The notes beneath the pieces are model-generated. The model made no database searches. It saw only the letters and a program-made list of their open reading frames with translations, and was not told the origin of the DNA. This document shows positions 14,661 to 36,788 of a DNA stretch of 47,539 nucleotides, in pieces (within the stretch, counting starts at the first letter, position 1; every line of letters starts with the position of its first letter). The DNA comes from Flavobacteriia bacterium (GTDB lineage: Bacteria; Bacteroidota; Bacteroidia; Flavobacteriales_D; Crocinitomicaceae): positions 1 through 47,539 of the forward strand of contig JACOTM010000087.1 of the NCBI GenBank assembly GCA_016178305.1. The letters are read 5' to 3'. Both the position numbers and the translations under genes were made by a program.

Positions 14661-15695
14661 TTAATTCAAATTTCGTTTAAATCCATTCATTGAAAAATGA
14701 AAAATTCCATTATCAATTTCATTCATCCTAGAAATCAATGTATTATCTGTCAAACCCATACGAGGTATAAATATATTATTTTTTCTTTTTGAAGAAAACA
14801 CATTACCTGGATGATTTAAGAATAACAGTTTCATCTTATCGACTTCTTCGATATTTTGACAAATGTCATCATAAGCACCATAAGGAAAAGCAAAAAAATC
14901 AACTTCTATATTTAACCGTGATTTCAAAGTTTTAACATTTGTAACAATTTCATTACGAATTGTTTCTTCTGTTTGAAATCCTAGAGAAATATGATGTTCT
15001 GTATGCGCTGCAAAAGTAATCAACGGATGATCAACCAACTGCTCAAGTTGTTCCCAAGAACAGGGTAATTTTTCATTATAAAATGAATTTAAACCTAATA
15101 ATAATTTTAATGGCCCCGTTAAAAATTCATTAATTTCAATTTTTGACATTTTACGACAATAATCTCGAAGAATAGTAAAAGCATCATATTTTTCTTCTTT
15201 TGTACACCAACTTAACTCTATATTTTTGCCTCTCCACCGGAAATTAATTTCAGATTTTAATTCTATATATTTCTCTAGTAAATACCACCAATAAATCGCA
15301 TTTTTATTAGGGAAACAGGAAGTAATGAATATACAAATTGGAATATTATACTTTTCGAAAACTGGCAATCCGTAAATTATATTATCTAAATAACCATCAT
15401 CAATTGTAAAAACAATTCCTTTTTTCTCCAACTTCTTTTTACTAGTAATAGTATCATATAACTCATCAACAGACCAAAAATCTTTATTACTTTTTTTAAA
15501 ATAAAGAATCCACTCTTCAAGTCCTTCGGGAGTAATAGCCAAATCTTTATTAATTGAAAATTCATTTTTCAATTCCTCTGGTAAAATTCGATGCAACATA
15601 AAAACATTCGCTATTCCCCCATAAATTGGTTTTGATATAATCCCTTTTGATTTAACAAAAAAACCTAAAATGTATTTTTTAATTATTTTTTTCAC
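14661..15695 (-). CDS. Polysaccharide deacetylase family protein (NodB fold)
   Basis: A 344-aa carbohydrate-esterase-4-like protein. The first NodB motif is FTIDDG with Asp99 and Asp100, and the second is HTEHH with His231 and His235. FFAFPYGAYDD is the third motif. All metal ligands appear present, so it should be an active N-deacetylase, perhaps on an N-acetylated sugar of the polymer or its lipid-linked precursor. There is no clear signal peptide, so it may act in the cytosol. The start is GTG, overlapping the upstream stop as GTGA. Confidence 0.82.
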   Translation of the reverse strand: MKKIIKKYILGFFVKSKGIISKPIYGGIANVFMLHRILPEELKNEFSINKDLAITPEGLEEWILYFKKSNKDFWSVDELYDTITSKKKLEKKGIVFTIDDGYLDNIIYGLPVFEKYNIPICIFITSCFPNKNAIYWWYLLEKYIELKSEINFRWRGKNIELSWCTKEEKYDAFTILRDYCRKMSKIEINEFLTGPLKLLLGLNSFYNEKLPCSWEQLEQLVDHPLITFAAHTEHHISLGFQTEETIRNEIVTNVKTLKSRLNIEVDFFAFPYGAYDDICQNIEEVDKMKLLFLNHPGNVFSSKRKNNIFIPRMGLTDNTLISRMNEIDNGIFHFSMNGFKRNLN

Positions 15696-16498
15696 TTTGT
15701 ATAAAATAACTTTTTAAGCAATCTGTATGGTCTTAATACAATATTACCTAATAAAAAATCTGGAGATTCTTTCAACATTTTATGCTCATAATACAAATCC
15801 ATCAATACCTTTCTAACAAATTTAGAATGCTTTTTATAAACATAATCTTTAATTTCTTCTAAATTCAAATTAGCCTCAACAAAAGTTCTTGAATAATTAG
15901 TAACTCTATACTTAAACAATGGTTCATTTATGTAATAAAATTTCACTCCATTTGAAATTAAATTTATCCATAATTCCCAATCTTCTAATCCTTTTTTACT
16001 TAAAAAAACATCAAATCCTCCAAATTTTTCAAAACATTTTTTTCTTATTAACACACAATTATCAATAGAATTAAATAATAAAATAGTTTTTACATTAATT
16101 TCGCCTGAAATCCCTATACCTTTTTTATCTCCAAAGTATTCGTAATCTGAATATACAACATCAATTTTTTCTTGTTCTTTGAAAATTTTTACAGCCTTAC
16201 TGATATATTTTTCAGTTACACAATTATCAGAATCTAAAAAAAATAAAATCTCTCCGCTACTTTTTGAAACACCTAGTTTTTTTGCAACAGATGGTCCAGC
16301 ATTATCTTGTCGAAAAATGTTTACCTGAAAATTCTGTAATTGTCCTTTTTGCAATAAGACTTCTGAACCATCGTCAATAATTATTATTTCAATATTTTTG
16401 TAATTTTGATTTTCCAAAGAATTTAATGCTTCTTTTAAAAAATCAATATTATTATAATATGGTATTATCACACTTACAAGCATTAATCCATTGTTCAT
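15692..16498 (-). CDS. Glycosyltransferase family 2
   Basis: A 268-aa GT-A enzyme. LVSVIIPYYNNIDFLKEALNS and IIIIDDGSE mark the nucleotide-binding start, ILFFLDSDNCV the DxD-type metal site (about residues 91-95), and FGGFDVFLSKKGLEDWELW the catalytic ED region. Either of two in-frame ATGs (16498 or 16483) could be the start. The sugar is unknown. It overlaps the deacetylase gene by 4 bp, so the two products may act one after the other. Confidence 0.86.
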   Translation of the reverse strand: MNNGLMLVSVIIPYYNNIDFLKEALNSLENQNYKNIEIIIIDDGSEVLLQKGQLQNFQVNIFRQDNAGPSVAKKLGVSKSSGEILFFLDSDNCVTEKYISKAVKIFKEQEKIDVVYSDYEYFGDKKGIGISGEINVKTILLFNSIDNCVLIRKKCFEKFGGFDVFLSKKGLEDWELWINLISNGVKFYYINEPLFKYRVTNYSRTFVEANLNLEEIKDYVYKKHSKFVRKVLMDLYYEHKMLKESPDFLLGNIVLRPYRLLKKLFYTK

Positions 16499-16503
16499 TA
16501 TAT

Positions 16504-17988
16504 TTAATATTGTAAATTTTTATAAACTAAAACTTCTGGTACATCTTTTGAACTTATTTCCTTAACTATCTGAAATTTTTGACTTTTTTCAATTTTCATT
16601 TTAACTCTTTGATGTATCCATTTGGTATTATCACTAAATATAGTATCTTTCTTTTTTAATGACTTATAAAATATAACAAATTGATTTTTTAAACAACTTT
16701 TAAATATCAAGTTTGATTTTTCAGTTAAATTCTTACCTTTTGAGGCAAACTTCCAAACAGCATCATTTGTAAAAAAACTATTTTCACCTTTTTCAACAAT
16801 TTGCTTGTTGCTTCTAATAAAATATTCTAAATTCAAATTGTATATATGTTTTTCATTTAGACAACTATAAACTGAAATTATTTTATCTGATTTTATTTTA
16901 AAAAAATAGTCTGCAATTTCAACCTCATTCATTTTATTCCCTCTACTAATAGCATCTCCATTTTTATAGGGATTTAATTTTAATGAAAAACTATAAATTG
17001 TTGAAATGGATAATAAAATTAAAAATGATAAAAATATTTTTCTTGAGATTAATACATTTTCAGCAACAAAAAGTAAAAAAAAACCAAATAAAATATAAGT
17101 CGTATTATATAAATGGAACGTATTATTAGTTTTTAATATAAAAATCAACAAAAATGGTATGAAACTATATGATTGTAAAGCTCCAAATATTGTTCCTCCA
17201 TAACCATAATCCTGAACTATATAGTAGTTGATAAACCTATTAAAATTATAAATTACAAACGGTATTGATGGTAAAATTCCCAATATAAAAAAAGAAATTG
17301 GTTTCAAAAATTTTCTATAGTCGTATTTATTTTTATTTACTAATAAATAAACTAGATACGGTGAAATTGTAAAAAATCCGAAAACACAAAATAAATATCG
17401 ACTCATAATAGAAATAGAAAATAATACTCCTCCCAAAAACAACCATCTTAAATGATCATTTTTATTCCAATTATAGATACAAATTAAAGATGACAATAGT
17501 AAAAAAGAAGGAGCAGTATCTAACCAAAAAACTCCTATGCCATACTTTGAATCAATAAAAATTGGTGATGTTATAAAAATTACAAAAAGAATTACTGCAA
17601 CTTTTCTTTCTGAATATTTAAATAAAGTATAAGAAAATAATAAAGAAAAACAAAGGAACATCGGAAACCCAGTAAACAAATGAGAATGTAAACTTTTTAA
17701 TGACCAAGGAGCAAATATTAAAGTAAAAATAGTTCTAAAAGAATAAAAATAATTTTCTTTAAATTCGTTTATTGACATATAAAATCTACTACCAAACGAA
17801 TGATATTTCAACTCTTCGTCCAAATAGATTGAATTTAAATGTATCATTTTATTATAAAAGATAGAAGAATCAAAAAAAAAAGAATTTTTTTCTATATAAT
17901 TATTAAATGAAAAAATAGCAAGTATTTGAATAATAGATGAACAAAGAATTACTATTGAAAATAATATGCATATACTTTTTTTAGTCAT
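16504..17988 (-). CDS. Polytopic membrane protein, GT-C glycosyltransferase-like
   Basis: A 494-aa protein with about ten hydrophobic segments and a soluble C-terminal part of about 140 residues. The first helix is followed by an extracytoplasmic loop with acidic residues (FFFDSSIFYNKM), as in GT-C enzymes that take sugar from a polyprenyl phosphate. Overall sequence is divergent, so the family call rests on topology and context. It lies 8 bp downstream of the GtrB-like gene, which would make exactly the donor a GT-C enzyme needs. An alternative is a polymerase or flippase-type membrane protein. Confidence 0.6.
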   Translation of the reverse strand: MTKKSICILFSIVILCSSIIQILAIFSFNNYIEKNSFFFDSSIFYNKMIHLNSIYLDEELKYHSFGSRFYMSINEFKENYFYSFRTIFTLIFAPWSLKSLHSHLFTGFPMFLCFSLLFSYTLFKYSERKVAVILFVIFITSPIFIDSKYGIGVFWLDTAPSFLLLSSLICIYNWNKNDHLRWLFLGGVLFSISIMSRYLFCVFGFFTISPYLVYLLVNKNKYDYRKFLKPISFFILGILPSIPFVIYNFNRFINYYIVQDYGYGGTIFGALQSYSFIPFLLIFILKTNNTFHLYNTTYILFGFFLLFVAENVLISRKIFLSFLILLSISTIYSFSLKLNPYKNGDAISRGNKMNEVEIADYFFKIKSDKIISVYSCLNEKHIYNLNLEYFIRSNKQIVEKGENSFFTNDAVWKFASKGKNLTEKSNLIFKSCLKNQFVIFYKSLKKKDTIFSDNTKWIHQRVKMKIEKSQKFQIVKEISSKDVPEVLVYKNLQY

Positions 17989-17996
17989 TTTATAAT

Positions 17997-18962
17997 TTAT
18001 TTATTTTTTAATTCTTCTTCAATAAAAAAAGAAGGTCTTTTTTTGGTTTCTTTATAAATTTTGCCAACATATTCAGCAATAATTCCAATTGCTAATAATT
18101 GAAAACCTGATAAAAAGTAAAGAGGTAATACAATTGAAGTCCATCCTTTTAATACATCAGAAGTCAAAAATGAATATAATGCATAAATATTTAAACAAAC
18201 TGTAATTAAAAACAATATTAATCCCAAAACACTAATCATTCTCAATGGTTTAGTTGAAAATGAAGTTATTCCATCAATAGCAAATGAAATCATTTTTCTT
18301 AATGGATACTTTGTTTCACCAGCAAGCCTTTCCTTTCTATTGTAGTAAACATTTTCTGATTTTAATCCAATCAAAGGAATCATTCCTCTTAAAAAGAGAT
18401 TCGATTCTTTAAAGGATAATAAATTATTAATAGCATTTTTACTCATCAATCTATAATCGGCATGATTTTCAATAATATTCACACCTAACTTAATCATTAA
18501 TTTGTAAAACACTTTTGCAGTATTTCTCTTAAACCATGAATCCGTATCTCTTTTATCTCTGACACCATAAACAATTTCTATGCCTTTTAAATACAACGAA
18601 ATCATTTCTGGAATCACTTCAATATCATCCTGTAAATCAGCATCTATAGTTATAACAGCATCACATTTATTAACATTTTGTGTAATTCCTGCTAATAAAG
18701 CAGATTGGTGTCCATAATTTCTTGACAATTTAATTCCTCTTACATATTTACTTTCTTTTGTAAACAAATCTATATAAAACCATGTATTGTCTTTGCTCCC
18801 ATCATCAACCAAACATAAAAAACTTTGATCTGAAATCAAATGTTCTTCAATTAATCTTGTAATTAATTTTAACATTTCTTGAACTGAATAATTAATTATT
18901 GCTTCCTCATTGTAACAAGGTAATAATAAACAAATTATTGGTTCTTTCAACTTTGAATTCAT
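17997..18962 (-). CDS. Polyprenyl-phosphate glycosyltransferase, GtrB/CsbB-like
   Basis: A 321-aa GT2 enzyme of the dolichol-phosphate-mannose-synthase type. LLPCYNEEAI and LVDDGSKDNTW mark the nucleotide site, ITIDADLQDD is the metal-binding motif, and LSRNYGHQSALLAGI, NHADYRLMSKNA and RKERLAGETKYPLRKM are family hallmarks. Two C-terminal membrane helices (about 240-263 and 275-300) are present. Such enzymes move glucose or another sugar from the nucleotide to undecaprenyl phosphate, which a partner membrane transferase then uses on the periplasmic side. The GT-C-like protein encoded just downstream is the likely partner. Confidence 0.9.
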   Translation of the reverse strand: MNSKLKEPIICLLLPCYNEEAIINYSVQEMLKLITRLIEEHLISDQSFLCLVDDGSKDNTWFYIDLFTKESKYVRGIKLSRNYGHQSALLAGITQNVNKCDAVITIDADLQDDIEVIPEMISLYLKGIEIVYGVRDKRDTDSWFKRNTAKVFYKLMIKLGVNIIENHADYRLMSKNAINNLLSFKESNLFLRGMIPLIGLKSENVYYNRKERLAGETKYPLRKMISFAIDGITSFSTKPLRMISVLGLILFLITVCLNIYALYSFLTSDVLKGWTSIVLPLYFLSGFQLLAIGIIAEYVGKIYKETKKRPSFFIEEELKNK

Positions 18963-18983: not shown

Positions 18984-19922
18984 TTAAAATAAAAAAATTT
19001 CAGAAAACAACACATCATAGTCTTTCAATTTAATTTTCGTAGAAAAAAACAACTGTCTAGAATGATAAAATTCTGTTATCTTACCTTTATATTTTAAGTT
19101 CTGTAACGATACATTTTCGATTCTTAAATCAAAAGTTTTTACACTAAAATTATCAAAGAAACAATACGAAAACGCTTCAAAATTTTCACATAAAAAAACA
19201 TAATCGCTAACAAAATGAATCTCATAAATTTCCATTGCTTTATTTAAGAAACTTAACCCTGTCAATTTTCTTAATCCAAAATCTAAATAATTTAATGTAC
19301 GACTCAATTGAATTTTACGTTTTTGAACTATCATTCGTTTCATTATAATTAAAATCGATTTTTCATCATTTTTAAAATAAATAAAATCACAATTTAATCC
19401 TTTATGCGTATCAAAAATTACCTTATTATTACCTTCAACTTGTTTTTCAATTTTTTTCAAATCTATTTCAAATACAAATGAATCGTCTTTTAGTAATGAA
19501 TTGTTTTTCCAAAACAATTTCCTGTTGTCATTCAATTGAATAAATCCATTTCTTTTATACATATTGTATAAAGATGGAATTGGTGTTATTGCTGTCAAAG
19601 TATAATCACCTAAAGTCTGTACATATTGAATGATTTTATCTGTCAATTTTTGACCTCTGTAATTCGGATCAATCATTAAACTTGTTAGATTAGAAAATAT
19701 TATGGATGTTAAATTAATTTCCCTAACACTAAAAATCAAGCCTAAAAAAGCAATAATAACATCTTGATCAGTAACCATCACTCCATAATAATTAACTGGC
19801 GATTTCCAATGTTGCTGAAATAATATCCTTTTTCCTTCTGCTACCTCAGAATTAATTTCATGTTTTCGAAAAAAATCTATAATTCTATTTTCATCTTCGG
19901 CAAAAACTTTACTAAATTCCAT
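18984..19922 (-). CDS. GNAT-fold N-acyltransferase
   Basis: A 312-aa protein whose first 150 residues form a GNAT domain: LTSLMIDPNYRGQKLTDKII resembles motif A for acyl-CoA binding, and YNMYKRNGFIQL is the usual motif B end. The second half, about residues 155-312, is not recognised and may bind the acceptor. Given the FdtA/FdtB genes in the locus, a nucleotide-linked amino sugar is a reasonable acceptor. It lies 4 bp downstream of the MaoC-like gene, which could supply the acyl donor. Substrate is inferred, not shown. Confidence 0.72.
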   Translation of the reverse strand: MEFSKVFAEDENRIIDFFRKHEINSEVAEGKRILFQQHWKSPVNYYGVMVTDQDVIIAFLGLIFSVREINLTSIIFSNLTSLMIDPNYRGQKLTDKIIQYVQTLGDYTLTAITPIPSLYNMYKRNGFIQLNDNRKLFWKNNSLLKDDSFVFEIDLKKIEKQVEGNNKVIFDTHKGLNCDFIYFKNDEKSILIIMKRMIVQKRKIQLSRTLNYLDFGLRKLTGLSFLNKAMEIYEIHFVSDYVFLCENFEAFSYCFFDNFSVKTFDLRIENVSLQNLKYKGKITEFYHSRQLFFSTKIKLKDYDVLFSEIFLF

Positions 19923-19926
19923 GTCA

Positions 19927-20328
19927 TCACATTTTTTTCAATCGAGCAACACCACTTAAAACGATTTCATTTGATTCATTATAACAAATTGTTTCAATTA
20001 GCAAATGTGCTTTATCTGTTATTTCAATAATCGTTAAGTTTGCTACAATACTATCTCCAATATAAACTGGATTCAAATATTTCACTTCGTGAGATAAATA
20101 AATTGTCCCTGGGCCAGGTAATTCATTAGCAAAAATAGTTGTCACAAAAGTCAACACTAACGGTCCATGAACAATTGGTTTTCTGAAAATAGTTTTTGAA
20201 GCAAACTCTTGACTAAAATGAATAGGATTAAAATCTCCTGTCAATTCAGCATATCTTCTTACATCTTCTTCTGTAAAACATTTACTTTTATTAAAACTAT
20301 CTCCTATTTTAAAAGATGTTATCTCCAT
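19927..20328 (-). CDS. MaoC-like (R)-specific enoyl-CoA hydratase
   Basis: A single hot-dog domain of 133 aa. The hydratase signature is GDFNPIHF with Asp32 and His37, almost the same positions as the catalytic pair of PhaJ enzymes, followed by PIVHGPLVLT. It should add water to a crotonyl-CoA-like substrate to give an (R)-3-hydroxyacyl-CoA. I start at the ATG at 20328; the frame runs on to a TTG at 20355, but the family begins near MEITSFKIGDSF. Its position between a glycosyltransferase and a GNAT gene in a polysaccharide locus suggests it makes a 3-hydroxyacyl donor for sugar acylation. Confidence 0.8.
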   Translation of the reverse strand: MEITSFKIGDSFNKSKCFTEEDVRRYAELTGDFNPIHFSQEFASKTIFRKPIVHGPLVLTFVTTIFANELPGPGTIYLSHEVKYLNPVYIGDSIVANLTIIEITDKAHLLIETICYNESNEIVLSGVARLKKM

Positions 20329-20407
20329 TTTCAGTGTCTTTTCTATACTTTCCAAACCAAAGTTATTTATTTAATTTAACAACCTTTATTTTTTTCTTTT
20401 TTTTTTA

Positions 20408-23019: not shown

Positions 23020-24132
23020 TTATTCATTTTGAGGTATATTTTGTGTTACTATCATATTTTTTAATCTAAACTTTAATCTATTTATAGTCTTATTTCTTCT
23101 ATGTTTTTTTAAAAAATATTCTGGGGTTTTATTGACTTTTTTCAGTAATATACCATTTGTTATCTCATCAACATATCTCTCTACTAAACCAAAAACTGCA
23201 TTCTCATTGTAATCTTTTAATGCTCTTCTCCATCCAGCTACGGCAATCATTTTACGTTCTTCATCATGCTCTAAATAATATCGCGTTTTGTCGATTGCTT
23301 CTTTCACATCTTCAAACCCGACAACTTCTTTGTCTAATTCAAACAATTGTCCTAAATGACTTTTGTTATCACAAATCTGCATCACCCCATTTGCAGGTAA
23401 AGTATAAGTTCTATAATTTATTGGACCTGTTGAATTATGAAAATTTGGGCCTATTTTCGTTTTCAAATACAATGGAATTTTATATTTTTCTTCTAAAAAT
23501 CCCTTAGGCCAACCAGCCCCATAATATTCTCCATTTGGAAAAAAAGAAGCATATTGATTTAATCTTTTAATACGTTCTGGATAATACTTCTTTTCACATA
23601 ACATTGCCAAATCAATATTTCTTTCTTCACTTAATATTCTATCTTCAGTTAGCGTAGAATCAAATTCATGTTGCATGAAACCTATAGGCCAAAATTTCAC
23701 ATTTTTTACTCCCCAACTCTTATATGTTTCTATTTCTGCTACATTCCCTATCATAGATAAATCATACGCAGCAGCAACAGGCCGAGATAATCTATGAGAA
23801 CTTTCAGGATCATCAAAACATCCATACACATTAAACGTAGTTAATTGAGAAACAAATTCAGGATGAATATTAATTCCATTCCAATTTAAAAACACATCGA
23901 AATCTTCCAATTTCCTAGCAAGCTTTGCATAATGATTTAGTAATTCTTTATCTCCTAATTGCCACATTTTATCTAATCTTTCCCACCATATTGGATGATT
24001 AGGAGGACTTACTGTCAAAGGATAAGCTTCAACTTGATGACCATAAGATTGTAATCTTTTTACCCATGATTCAACTGTCATTCTCACATCATTGGGATAG
24101 GGGTAATAACTATATCCTAATAATATTTTCAT
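23020..24132 (-). CDS. CgeB-like glycosyltransferase
   Basis: A 370-aa protein. The C-terminal third resembles the Glyco_trans_1_2/CgeB-type donor domain: TLPANGVMQICDNKSHLGQL, LDKEVVGFEDVKEAID and RYYLEHDEERKMIAVAGWRR. The N-terminus [16 protein letters not shown] looks like a nucleotide-sugar Rossmann start, and a central block has NVYGCFDDPESSHRLSRPVA. By eye it has a less extreme AT bias than its neighbours. It shares one base with the fdtB-like stop codon (TAATG). Donor unknown. Confidence 0.72.
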   Translation of the reverse strand: MKILLGYSYYPYPNDVRMTVESWVKRLQSYGHQVEAYPLTVSPPNHPIWWERLDKMWQLGDKELLNHYAKLARKLEDFDVFLNWNGINIHPEFVSQLTTFNVYGCFDDPESSHRLSRPVAAAYDLSMIGNVAEIETYKSWGVKNVKFWPIGFMQHEFDSTLTEDRILSEERNIDLAMLCEKKYYPERIKRLNQYASFFPNGEYYGAGWPKGFLEEKYKIPLYLKTKIGPNFHNSTGPINYRTYTLPANGVMQICDNKSHLGQLFELDKEVVGFEDVKEAIDKTRYYLEHDEERKMIAVAGWRRALKDYNENAVFGLVERYVDEITNGILLKKVNKTPEYFLKKHRRNKTINRLKFRLKNMIVTQNIPQNE

Positions 24133-25238
24133 TATTTAAATTTATTTATTACATCAATAACACGAAAAATATCACTTTTATTATGATAATAGGAGATTGG
24201 TAAACTCAAGGTAGTTTTATGAATGATTTCTGATATTTCACATTCTTGATTTTTCAAAATTTCTTTATAAGCAACCTGTTTGTTAGGTGAAACAGGATAA
24301 TGGATTTCTGTTTTAATATTATTATTTTGAAGAAATAATTTTAACTCATCTCTATTATCTGTCCTTAATGTAAATATGTGAAAAACATCTTCAAAATTCT
24401 GAACAACATATGGAAGAATAAAACGAGAATCAATGTTTTCAAAATAATAATTAGCTAACACTTTCTTGTGTAAGTTTATTTGATCCAAATATTTTAATTT
24501 TATAGATAAAAATCCTGCTTGAATTTCATCAAGTCTTGAGTTATATCCAATGTATTTATTAAAATATTTTTTTAAAGATCCATAATTTCTTAAATATTTT
24601 AATTTTTCATATAATTTCTCATCATTTGTTGTGATTGCACCAGCATCCCCTAAGGCTCCTAAATTTTTTGTCGGATAAAAACTAAATGCGCCAAGATCTC
24701 CCCATGAACCAGCCTTAATACCGTTTAAACTAGCCCCATGTGCTTGAGCACAATCTTCAATGATTTTCAAATTATATTTTTGAGCAATTAAACAGATCTT
24801 ATCCATTTCGCAGATTTTCCCATATAAATGAACAGGAAGTATCGCTTTTGTTTTAGATGTTATTTTTGATTCAATCTTCAATGGGTCTATATTATAGGTA
24901 ACAATATCAGGTTCTACTAATACAGGTATATGTCCAGCATTAACAATGGCTAATATTGTTGCTATATATGTGTTAGAAGGTACTATTATTTCAGATTTTA
25001 GAGGGAAATCAAATACTACTATTGACAACATTAATGCATCTAAACCAGAAGCAACACCTAAACAATACTTTACATCACAATATTTTGCAAATTCTATTTC
25101 AAAATTCGAAACATTTTCACCTAAAATATACCAACCTGATTGCAATGTCTCATTAAATAATTGCTTATATGCATCTTCAAAAGGTGCGTTTAACAATTTT
25201 AAATTTTCGTATTCAATTATATCACTCATACTTTTCAT
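24132..25238 (-). CDS. fdtB: dTDP-3-oxo-sugar 3-aminotransferase, FdtB/QdtB-like
   Basis: A 368-aa PLP-dependent aminotransferase of the DegT/DnrJ/EryC1 family. [13 protein letters not shown] binds the cofactor phosphate, [10 protein letters not shown] holds the ring-stacking region, and the Schiff-base lysine is Lys191 in [16 protein letters not shown]. Next to an FdtA/QdtA-type ketoisomerase, it should aminate C3 of dTDP-3-keto-6-deoxyhexose to give dTDP-Fuc3N (FdtB) or dTDP-Qui3N (QdtB). Sequence reading cannot separate these two. It overlaps the ketoisomerase gene by 17 bp; a second ATG at 25229 is also possible. Confidence 0.85.
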
Positions 25239-25587
25239 AAATATAATCTTCTTGAATATAATTTTCCGATGCTAAAACCATAAGAATAGCATCCTTTGAA
25301 AATTCACACATTTCATGCCAATCTTCAGGTTGAATTATTAAACACTTAGTAGGTGAGTCTAATAAATATTCTCTCACTTCAAAACCATTATTGTTTACAA
25401 TTTTACAACTACCCTTGATACAAAATGCTGCCTGTACAGTTTTTTGATGCCTATGCCCTCCCCTTACAGAATCATCAACATTGTAGATGTAAAATATCCT
25501 TTTTATACTAAAAGGGATTTCATTTTCAATAACAGTTAATGACCCTCTTATATCTGTAAAAGTTTTTAATTCTATTAATTCAGCCAT
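25222..25587 (-). CDS. fdtA: dTDP-4-oxo-6-deoxyhexose 3,4-ketoisomerase, FdtA/QdtA-like cupin
   Basis: A 121-aa single cupin of the WxcM/FdtA group. [15 protein letters not shown] is the usual start, and the active-site histidines are His45 and His47 in [11 protein letters not shown], with Tyr35 nearby. It moves the keto group from C4 to C3 of dTDP-4-keto-6-deoxyglucose. The product is then aminated by the next gene. No dTDP-glucose 4,6-dehydratase is present here. Whether it makes the galacto (FdtA) or gluco (QdtA) epimer cannot be told. Confidence 0.87.
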
Positions 25588-34892: not shown

Positions 34893-36788
34893 TTATCTTG
34901 TTTCCAAAATGCATTGAACCACATTCGGATCTAACAAAGTAGAAATATCTCCAAAATTATCTTTTTCTCCTTCTGCTATTTTACGCAAAATTCTTCTCAT
35001 AATTTTTCCTGAACGTGTTTTAGGCAATCCTTTAACAACTTGAATAATATCTGGTTTTGCAATTTTCCCTATATGATCTGCTATAGAATCAATAATGGAA
35101 GATTTTATAAGGTTTTCATCTGTTTCTTTTGTGTTTACTACTACAAACACATAAATTCCCTGACCTTTAATATCGTGAGGAAAGCCAACAACCGCTGATT
35201 CAATTGCATACTCATTTTTATTAATCGCATCTTCTATTTCAGCTGTACCAAAACGATGTCCTGATACATTAATAACATCATCCACTCTTCCAATTATTCG
35301 ATACATCCCATGTTCATCTCTTTTGGCTCCATCCCCTGTAAAATAATATCCTTTGTAATTTGAAAAATAAGTTTGTTGACATCTTTCATGGTCACCATAA
35401 GTTGTTCGAATCATAGATGGCCAAGGAAATTTAACACATAAATATCCTTCCGCATTGGCTTCCTGAATTTTATTGCCTTCAGTATCTAATAATTCCAATT
35501 GAATCCCTGGAATTGGGTAACCAGCAAATGTTGCTTTCATTGGCGATAAACCTCCCAAACCCGAAAGCATAATTCCTCCAGTTTCTGTTTGCCACCACGT
35601 ATCAATTATTGGACAATTATTTTTTCCTACATGTTTATAATACCAATTCCAAGCCTCTTCATTAATCGGCTCTCCAACCGACCCTATTATTTTCAATGAT
35701 GATAAATCATGTTTTTCCACAAAAGAAAGGTCGAAACTCATTAAAGATCGAATTGCTGTTGGGGCAGTATAAAATTGATTGACTTTATATTTTTCAATAA
35801 TCTCCCAAAATCTACCTGCATCAGGAAACGTTGGAATGCCTTCAAATAAAACAGAAGTAGCTCCACACAACAAAGAACCATAAACGATATATGAATGCCC
35901 TGTAATCCAACCAATATCAGCAGTACACCAAAAAACATCTTTACTGTCATATTGAAAAGCATTTTGAAAAGTATAAGCTGTATAAACCATATATCCTCCA
36001 CATGTATGCACAACTCCTTTTGGTTTTCCCGTTGACCCTGAAGTATATAAAATGAATAACATGTCTTCTGCATCCATGATTGCTGCATCGCATTTTTTTT
36101 CTTTTCCAGCTATTAGATCATGATAAAAAATATCACGCCCATTTTTCATTTTAGGATTTGAATGAATACAATCTAAAACGATAACATTTTCAACTGTTGA
36201 ACACGAAACTAACGCTTCATCAACCATTGATTTTAAATCTACTTTTTTATCTCCCCTGTTTAATCCGTCCGCTGTTAAAACAACTTTCACTGCCGCATCA
36301 TTAATTCTATCTGCCAAGGCATTCGCTGAAAAACCAGCAAAAACTACTGAATGGACTGCTCCAATCCTTGCACAAGCTAACATTGCAACAACTGATTCAA
36401 TAACCATTGGCATGTAAATACATACACGATCTCCTTTTTGTACATTTAATGATTTTAAACCATTTGCCAATTCACATACTTGATAGTAAAGCTCTAAATA
36501 GGTAATTGATTTATGTTGATCTTTTTTTTTTTTTTTCTCCCAATAATAAGCTACTTTATCTGGGTTTTTAACAATATTCTCCTCTAAAATCGTTTCTGTA
36601 ATATTCAATTTCCCTCCTTTAAACCAATCAACTTGAAAATCTTGAAAATCCCAATTTAAGATTGTATCCCATTTCTTTTTCCATCTAAAATTGAATGCTA
36701 TTTCTCCCCAAAACGCTTCTGGTTGTGTAATGCTTTTAGTATATTTTTCTTGGTATTCTTCAAAAGAATTAATTTGAATAGCTTTCAT
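34893..36788 (-). CDS. acs: Acetyl-CoA synthetase
   Basis: Activates acetate with ATP and CoA to acetyl-CoA. The 631-aa length is close to the usual 640-650. Motifs: YTSGSTGKPKGVVHT (AMP binding), DTWWQTETGG, YFTGDGAKRDEHGMYRIIGR and the C-terminal PKTRSGKIMRR with Lys595, the site acetylated in known enzymes. An odd point is a run of 15 A on the coding strand (36522-36536) giving five lysines in WEKKKKKDQHKS, where homologues usually have a short acidic turn. The frame is open across it. It is separate from the polysaccharide locus. Confidence 0.93.
   Translation of the reverse strand: MKAIQINSFEEYQEKYTKSITQPEAFWGEIAFNFRWKKKWDTILNWDFQDFQVDWFKGGKLNITETILEENIVKNPDKVAYYWEKKKKKDQHKSITYLELYYQVCELANGLKSLNVQKGDRVCIYMPMVIESVVAMLACARIGAVHSVVFAGFSANALADRINDAAVKVVLTADGLNRGDKKVDLKSMVDEALVSCSTVENVIVLDCIHSNPKMKNGRDIFYHDLIAGKEKKCDAAIMDAEDMLFILYTSGSTGKPKGVVHTCGGYMVYTAYTFQNAFQYDSKDVFWCTADIGWITGHSYIVYGSLLCGATSVLFEGIPTFPDAGRFWEIIEKYKVNQFYTAPTAIRSLMSFDLSFVEKHDLSSLKIIGSVGEPINEEAWNWYYKHVGKNNCPIIDTWWQTETGGIMLSGLGGLSPMKATFAGYPIPGIQLELLDTEGNKIQEANAEGYLCVKFPWPSMIRTTYGDHERCQQTYFSNYKGYYFTGDGAKRDEHGMYRIIGRVDDVINVSGHRFGTAEIEDAINKNEYAIESAVVGFPHDIKGQGIYVFVVVNTKETDENLIKSSIIDSIADHIGKIAKPDIIQVVKGLPKTRSGKIMRRILRKIAEGEKDNFGDISTLLDPNVVQCILETR
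36522..36536. repeat. Homopolymer of 15 T (A on the coding strand) inside acs
   Basis: An uninterrupted 15-base run within the acs coding sequence near codon 85-90, coding for Lys5. It is long enough to slip. Confidence 0.9.

Follow-up and report, generated by a model that had tools for sequence, protein, structure and literature searches.

A MaoC-type hydratase gene beside a tandem-GNAT gene in a Flavobacteriia polysaccharide locus: a probable acyl-supply and acyl-transfer pair

Judging from sequence, two adjoining genes of a Flavobacteriia bacterium, one for a MaoC-type hydratase and one for a GNAT-type acyltransferase, probably serve to make an acyl group and to transfer it to an amino sugar of a surface polysaccharide. 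Acyl transfer is well supported for the GNAT family concerned and plausible for the window, that is, the whole stretch of 47,539 nucleotides that was analyzed. Acyl-supply genes recurrently stand beside members of this family, which supports a pair of acyl supply and acyl transfer. The minus-strand order in the window is MaoC, GNAT, a PgfS/ArnC-type GT2, a membrane protein, a GT2 and a CE4 deacetylase, all tightly packed, and FdtA- and FdtB-type genes lie upstream of the MaoC-GNAT pair:

25222..25587, minus strand: FdtA/QdtA-type sugar 3,4-ketoisomerase (PF05523, E 7.4e-35; PDB 2pa7, E 1.2e-28)
24132..25238, minus strand: FdtB/QdtB-type DegT aminotransferase (PF01041, E 2.7e-99); alternative source of a free amine
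19927..20328, minus strand: MaoC / (R)-hydratase-like protein, 133 aa, ATG at 20328; proposed acyl-supply enzyme
18984..19922, minus strand: tandem-GNAT acyltransferase, 312 aa, member of the family alignment A3; proposed N-acyltransferase
17997..18962, minus strand: GT2 of PgfS/ArnC type (NCBIfam PgfS, E 1.4e-66; ArnC-type PRK10714, E 3.7e-41; both under cut-offs)
16504..17988, minus strand: membrane protein by reading of the sequence, weakly PMT-like (PMT_2, E 0.019, under cut-off)
15692..16498, minus strand: family-2 glycosyltransferase by reading of the sequence, between the PMT-like and CE4 genes
14661..15695, minus strand: CE4 polysaccharide deacetylase (PF01522, E 5.5e-16); candidate maker of a free amine

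The GNAT gene begins 4 bp after the MaoC gene (gap 19923-19926), as stated in the initial annotation, and the PgfS/ArnC-type GT2 starts 21 bp past the GNAT gene. The CE4 gene, fourth downstream of the GNAT gene with three genes in between, also gave PgaB/IcaB-like NCBIfam matches far under cut-offs; the initial annotation mentioned neither this gene (15695..14661) nor the tandem architecture of the GNAT protein. An NCBIfam search at E 1 returned no match for the membrane protein, which is possibly the partner of the PgfS/ArnC-type GT2, a role that we infer.

The FdtA/FdtB-type genes reported before are present and well matched. The best PDB match of the FdtA-type protein, 2pa7, is a dTDP-6-deoxy-3,4-keto-hexulose isomerase that we take to be FdtA, and both of the two histidines that differ between PDB variants are kept in the window protein. 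The DegT protein matches 5u1z (E 4.7e-121) and QdtB 3frk (E 6.5e-107), and the RmlB gene that the dTDP route requires lies on a different contig of the same genome. A Hexapep search of this genome gave 24 matches, none of them on the window's contig (C93), in agreement with the earlier remark that the locus has no hexapeptide FdtC/QdtC-type gene. The RmlB contig (L129:3079-8197) carries, next to RmlB, what looks by eye like a WbpA/B/D/E-like set for a UDP-linked 3-amino sugar acid, a second 3-amino-sugar route with its own hexapeptide gene. Among the window ORFs of at least 60 aa, none was labelled SDR, FkbH, ACP or KAS (phmmer, 1e-5); the one further acyl label belongs to an AMP-binding protein at 34893..36788, about 15 kb away. 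FkbH had no match elsewhere in the genome in a search run without a genome known to match.

The MaoC-type protein

The MaoC protein matches Pfam MaoC_dehydratas (PF01575, E 3.2e-22) and, in the PDB, 3ir3 (3-hydroxyacyl-thioester dehydratase 2, E 2.6e-23) and 1iq6 ((R)-specific enoyl-CoA hydratase, E 5.8e-21). An upstream TTG at 20355 is an alternative start and would give 142 aa. By residue count, the motif YAELTGDFNPIHF holds Asp32 and His37, so the catalytic pair named in the initial annotation is indeed kept, and the same D and H are identical in 27/27 comparison rows. The protein has a MaoC domain with the Asp/His pair, as is characteristic of PhaJ-type (R)-specific enoyl-CoA hydratases.

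MaoC relatives were detected in 31 of 395 genomes of the class at E 1e-23 and in 10 of 12 genomes of the genus at E 1e-12, the own genome being counted in both samples. In several genus relatives, a PhaJ-like gene stands next to apparent PHA genes. The window MaoC falls outside the clade of these PHA loci (starred in the MaoC tree, 97/99), on a long branch that may be misplaced, and the PhaC of the genus had no match in the own genome in a search without positive control. Neither part of a PHA setting (PhaC in the genome, a place in the PHA clade) was thus found, by a PhaC search lacking that control and for a long-branched MaoC. We considered the MaoC gene as a PHA gene and thought it unlikely on these two grounds. 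At E 0.001, the genome gave one further MaoC match, within a protein that looks like a PaaZ-type aldehyde dehydrogenase fusion.

The nearest sequence (47% identity, genome G642) comes from an apparent glycan locus, L081, where the MaoC gene stands beside an AAC(3)-like acyltransferase gene. The window MaoC joins it in the tree with a support of 83/58 and on long branches, so that we put little weight on this grouping. In L081:9545-11004, MaoC is followed by the AAC(3)-like Antibiotic_NAT gene (PF02522, E 3e-24), and the locus reads as one for a CDP-dideoxyhexose glycan; here MaoC adjoins an acyltransferase of another fold. A GNAT-family gene was found in 0 of the 24 stretches around other MaoC genes (13 from the class set and 11 from the genus set); a MaoC gene by itself is therefore no sign of the pair.

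The tandem-GNAT protein and its gene neighbours

The earlier GNAT label stands by the predicted model, which makes the protein a tandem GNAT, and its family is a rare one; in Pfam, GNAT matches lie only under the cut-offs (Acetyltransf_7, E 1.7e-4, 22.3 of 27 bits), and Pfam and NCBIfam barely detect the protein. The AlphaFold model (mean pLDDT 76.6, pTM 0.63) comprises two GNAT domains, the second half being of lower confidence. This tandem arrangement is that of HfsK-like N-acyltransferases, and a GNAT fold is predicted instead of the left-handed beta-helix (hexapeptide) fold of FdtC/QdtC. Structure matches reach Z 11.4-12.6, most of them over 243-275 residues and covering both halves; they include N-myristoyltransferases, Eis, the C. 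acetobutylicum glucosamine N-acetyltransferase 5kf1 and other tandem GNATs. No FemAB-type Pfam model matched any of 11 members of the family at E 0.1. GNAT proteins usually carry the CoA loop pattern R/Q-x-x-G-x-G/A. By eye, this loop is eroded in the family, the last place being G or A in 1 of 11 members of A3, which may hint at ACP donors but is given no weight here.

Relatives of the GNAT protein were found in 2/199 genomes of the order, 3/395 of the phylum, 3/395 of the class, 2/240 of the family and 1/296 of the order of G422; the samples are not disjoint, the own genome is one of the matches in each of the first four, and the last match is G422 itself. The only other match among the 240 family genomes is G133, with locus L031. 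A scan of genome contigs gave 12 loci out of 69 pattern matches, from Bacteroidota, Chlorobi, Syntrophales, Magnetococcales, Nitrospinota, Eisenbacteria, Legionella, a cyanobacterium and an unplaced bacterium. On plasmids, the A3 profile found full-length members in Paludibaculum (1e-63), S. meliloti (1.8e-58), Rhizobium (7.1e-55 and 8e-54) and Sulfitobacter (2.5e-32), and a single-sequence search found one in Aureimonas (4e-52); none of these was used in the profile. Among viral contigs, 50 stretches fitted the pattern of the GNAT alignment and 0 encode a relative.

In the Bacteroidota loci L030, L049 and L035, a MaoC-reductase fusion is followed by FkbH, ACP, GNAT and CE4, in this order (the FkbH of L030 is above its cut-off; the ACP of L035 is visible by frame translation only). 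These fusions lie upstream of GNAT in three loci, while a separate MaoC gene directly beside GNAT occurs in the window alone of 20 loci. A CE4 homologue directly follows GNAT in L031, L030, L035 and L049. L031, from the window's own family, shows the end of GNAT, then CE4 and GT2, with the CE4-GT2 order as in the window. On three Sulfitobacter plasmids a CE4-GNAT pair is followed by a gene on the opposite strand.

Other loci have other partners. L038 has ACP and FkbH (its ACP label is weak: phmmer 1e-7, without a Pfam match), L039 has FkbH before GNAT, and in Paludibaculum a divergent FkbH stands beside GNAT with CE4 nearby. L040, S. meliloti pSymB and Aureimonas carry the AMP-ligase and the decarboxylase that NCBIfam names after the exosortase A system (TIGR03098 and TIGR03099, over the curated cut-offs in S. 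meliloti and under them in L040); for Aureimonas (L136), the names of ligase, decarboxylase and ACP come from the record's annotation. On S. meliloti pSymB, GNAT is followed by the TIGR03098 ligase, the TIGR03099 decarboxylase, an annotated phosphopantetheine-binding protein and CE4, and the stretch from GNAT to ACP was matched in 27 plasmid records, among which pSymB of strain 1021, itself part of the collection searched, was not found. Such ligase-decarboxylase sets show that different members of the family handle different acyl groups, so that relatives do not reveal which one applies in a given locus. An ACP label is present in L041, an AMP-ligase in L047, and a reductase and a ligase in Rhizobium pT136b. 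Neither an acyl-supply nor a CE4 partner was seen in L036, L042, L043 and L045, where the contig ends directly past GNAT in three and one gene later in L042. The weak or partial plasmid relatives L140, L142, L143 and L141 (the last by annotation) have no adjoining acyl-supply gene.

Some of these loci, and others, showed features in their own right. In L137:10926-16612 (S. meliloti pSymB), the tandem GNAT, exosortase-A-type ligase and decarboxylase, ACP and CE4 are grouped closely. L138:8905-16152 (Rhizobium sp. T136 pT136b) has the tandem GNAT, then an SDR, an adenylate-forming enzyme and an annotated FADH2-dependent halogenase, and looks like a small natural-product cluster. A MaoC-reductase fusion, an FkbH-like protein and an ACP occur together in an apparent nonulosonic (pseudaminic-type) acid locus (L091:3521-14088), which suggests a custom acyl group on that sugar. 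KAS III, methyltransferase, MaoC-reductase and FkbH-like genes stand in a row in L018:1-4446 and L090:6943-13588, L090 having ACP and AMP-ligase as well; no tandem-GNAT label was found in these two stretches.

The placing of neighbours was assessed in 20 loci by rotating the gene labels around each locus 5000 times, with GNAT fixed and operons kept together. A gene for making or carrying acyl groups lay within two genes of GNAT in 13 of the 20, a count reached in 0 of 5000 rotations (mean 3.95). This count has its limits: part of the acyl-supply queries came from the very neighbours then labelled, contig ends truncate a number of the loci, not all ACP labels are strong, and the cassette of L030, L049 and L035 may have been inherited once, which would make these three non-independent. 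CE4 lay within one gene in 5/20 (mean 1.37; reached 37 times in 5000) and within four genes in 9/20 (mean 5.44; 116/5000). Glycosyltransferases within three genes were not enriched (3/20; mean 4.81; 4746/5000). Left out of the set were L044 (no GNAT ORF found), L029 and L048 (same contigs as L039 and L035), L132, L133 and L134 (near-copies of L131 and L137), L140, L142 and L143 (partial, weak profile matches), L141 (no profile match) and the Aureimonas locus L136 (GNAT ORF uncalled). The plasmid stretches examined came from a minority of the S. meliloti and Rhizobium records and from all but one of the Sulfitobacter records.

These results bear on two points of the initial annotation. Its reading of MaoC and GNAT as acyl supply and acyl transfer gains support from the 13 loci and from the upstream MaoC-reductase fusions. 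As to the survey of MaoC-GNAT neighbours that it had called for, a separate MaoC directly beside GNAT is found in the window alone among the 20 loci, and none of the 24 other MaoC loci has a GNAT-family gene.

Proposed reading and alternatives

Our preferred reading is that MaoC makes a non-acetyl acyl group which GNAT puts on a sugar amine freed by CE4; as a whole we hold it tentatively, at somewhat less than an even chance. By hydrating a trans-2-enoyl thioester, the MaoC protein would supply an acyl thioester other than acetyl; a short (R)-3-hydroxyacyl group is the likeliest, with 3-hydroxybutyryl as one candidate. Since the window has no SDR, FkbH, ACP or KAS label, the enoyl thioester would need to come from general metabolism, and since no ACP was found there, the carrier would be CoA or a general ACP. 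The tandem-GNAT protein would then transfer the acyl group to the amino group of a surface-polysaccharide sugar. This amine would most likely be freed by the CE4 enzyme of the same gene run, an acetyl being exchanged for a custom acyl group. As a guess, the downstream GT2 and membrane protein could attach the completed sugar as a side branch via a lipid carrier. The acyl group, its carrier, its acceptor and the order of events are all what we infer.

In favour of this reading we counted the rotation results for acyl-supply genes and CE4, with glycosyltransferases not enriched, the gene order of L030, L049 and L035, L031, the Sulfitobacter pairs, the S. meliloti set and the tandem-GNAT model, together with the position of MaoC outside the PHA-locus clade and the lack of a genus-PhaC match. 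Against it we counted the three genes between CE4 and GNAT, the separate MaoC beside GNAT being unique to the window, the absence of GNAT-family genes from the 24 other MaoC loci, the loci with neither partner, the plasmid relatives without an adjoining acyl-supply gene, the possibly shared cassette, the acyl-supply queries drawn from the labelled neighbours, the weak ACP labels, the missing SDR, FkbH, ACP and KAS labels, the varying acyl group of the family and the long branch of the window MaoC in its tree.

The locus offers two amines, one exposed by CE4 and one made by FdtB. Evidence from the family favours the former, while the local FdtAB genes without FdtC allow the latter, so that FdtB's amine is a possible acceptor in the window. 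The corresponding alternative, in which GNAT N-acylates the 3-amine of dTDP-Fuc3N or dTDP-Qui3N from FdtA/FdtB (the job of FdhC/QdhC) with (R)-3-hydroxybutyryl-CoA from MaoC, is rather unlikely in our view. It would use the well-matched FdtA and FdtB and the RmlB encoded elsewhere, would fill the place of the hexapeptide protein missing from the contig, and would give a product type known in Hafnia and E. coli O103, according to the excerpt of PMC4869667. Against this, FdtA was labelled in 1/20 GNAT-family stretches, the window alone, versus 11/20 for CE4, the window included. Moreover, the DegT gene of L030 and L049 is followed by a PglD/NeuD-like protein (by a PglD_N match in L030, by reading of the sequence in L049), so GNAT need not serve the DegT product there. 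The earlier proposal that GNAT replaces FdtC is, as it was stated, not supported by these data.

GNAT could also be an ordinary N-acetyltransferase using acetyl-CoA, with MaoC incidental or the leftover of a larger acyl-synthesis cassette. We regard this as unlikely: the family adjoins acyl-supply genes in the rotation test and MaoC keeps its catalytic residues, even though SDR, FkbH and ACP labels, present in the relatives, are missing from the window, a MaoC directly beside GNAT occurs here alone, and tandem GNATs among the structure matches, such as Eis and the glucosamine enzyme of C. acetobutylicum, bear the title of acetyltransferase. It is more doubtful still, and to us improbable, that MaoC belongs to lipid or storage metabolism, in a PhaJ role, and stands in this gene run by chance. 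The match to 1iq6 and the PhaJ-like gene in the apparent PHA locus of several genus relatives would suit such a role; the PhaC search without positive control, the other MaoC match lying in the apparent PaaZ-type fusion and the long-branched position outside the PHA clade speak against it.

GNAT relatives in other phyla often stand beside other acyl-making genes and sugar deacetylases, so that the pair in the window looks like one version of a modular sugar-decorating system. A wider reading, which we put forward as possible rather than probable, is that the tandem-GNAT family is, over several phyla, a general glycan N-acyltransferase, often coupled to CE4, in which acetyls are swapped for made-to-order acyl groups from interchangeable modules: FkbH-ACP, MaoC-reductase-FkbH-ACP, ligase-decarboxylase-ACP, reductase-ligase or MaoC alone. 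What most deserves further work is this wider pattern, in which a single tandem-GNAT family goes with exchangeable acyl modules and a deacetylase. GNAT loci beside presumed acyl-making genes yield testable predictions of the donor, including in the tractable symbiont S. meliloti. In Flavobacterium psychrophilum, R-group genes affect LPS antigenicity, according to the excerpt of PMC6519341, and knowledge of the acyl modules would therefore help to predict surface structures from genomes.

Comparison with known systems

In Nod factor synthesis, NodB and NodA carry out a deacetylation and then an N-acylation with a special acyl group. Their product is a lipo-chitooligosaccharide signal, in contrast to the surface polysaccharide of the window. 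The butirosin side-chain genes comprise a ligase, an ACP, a PLP decarboxylase and an acyltransferase. The ligase-decarboxylase-ACP set by GNAT in S. meliloti and Aureimonas recalls such carrier-bound acyl assembly for an amino sugar, a set absent beside the window GNAT.

That 3-hydroxyacyl groups occur on bacterial amino sugars, as the initial annotation noted, is borne out by FdtAB with FdhC and QdtAB with QdhC, which the excerpt of PMC4869667 assigns to (R)-3-hydroxybutanoyl Fuc3N/Qui3N; this gene set and pathway also appear in PMC3726653. These systems share with the window the FdtA/FdtB-type genes in a polysaccharide locus, and their product is a 3-hydroxybutanoyl group on a 3-amino sugar. 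The window has a MaoC gene, whereas the excerpts of PMC4869667 and PMC3726653 mention none. The view that the pairing is little described holds in that, among the matches listed, no open-licence paper brings MaoC and glycan acylation together in its title or the start of its abstract, although a product of this kind is already assigned to FdhC/QdhC (excerpt of PMC4869667); no paper on anthrose was among the matches listed. Modules of A. baumannii include 3-hydroxybutanoyl forms of Pse, Leg and QuiNAc4N (excerpt of PMC9676051). F. psychrophilum, of a Bacteroidota genus, likewise equips an amino sugar of its O-polysaccharide with a custom hydroxyacyl group: wfpC-G are linked to a 3,5-dihydroxyhexanoyl group on Qui2NAc4N, and the excerpt of PMC6519341 gives, as the authors' prediction, a local ACP system with an O-PS-specific ACP, two 3-ketoacyl-ACP synthases, a reductase and a PglD-type transferase. 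The window differs, with no ACP, KAS or reductase label and no hexapeptide match on its contig.

The closest published logic is that of the Caulobacter holdfast, where, in the excerpt of PMC5362036, the deacetylase HfsH, reported as cytosolic, and the tandem-GNAT protein HfsK act on one surface polysaccharide. Its authors suggest that HfsK might acylate amines exposed by HfsH and call the exact role of HfsK unclear (PMC5362036). In the window, a CE4 gene lies in the gene run of the tandem-GNAT gene, and its product may act on the same glycan. By that excerpt's description, HfsK is FemX-like and binds c-di-GMP, and it may in this differ from the GNAT family, of which 11 members gave no FemAB-type match; nor does the excerpt name an acyl-supply gene, whereas one often adjoins the GNAT family. 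By analogy, deacetylation followed by reacylation in the manner of HfsH/HfsK would fit the GNAT family better than the replacement of FdtC.
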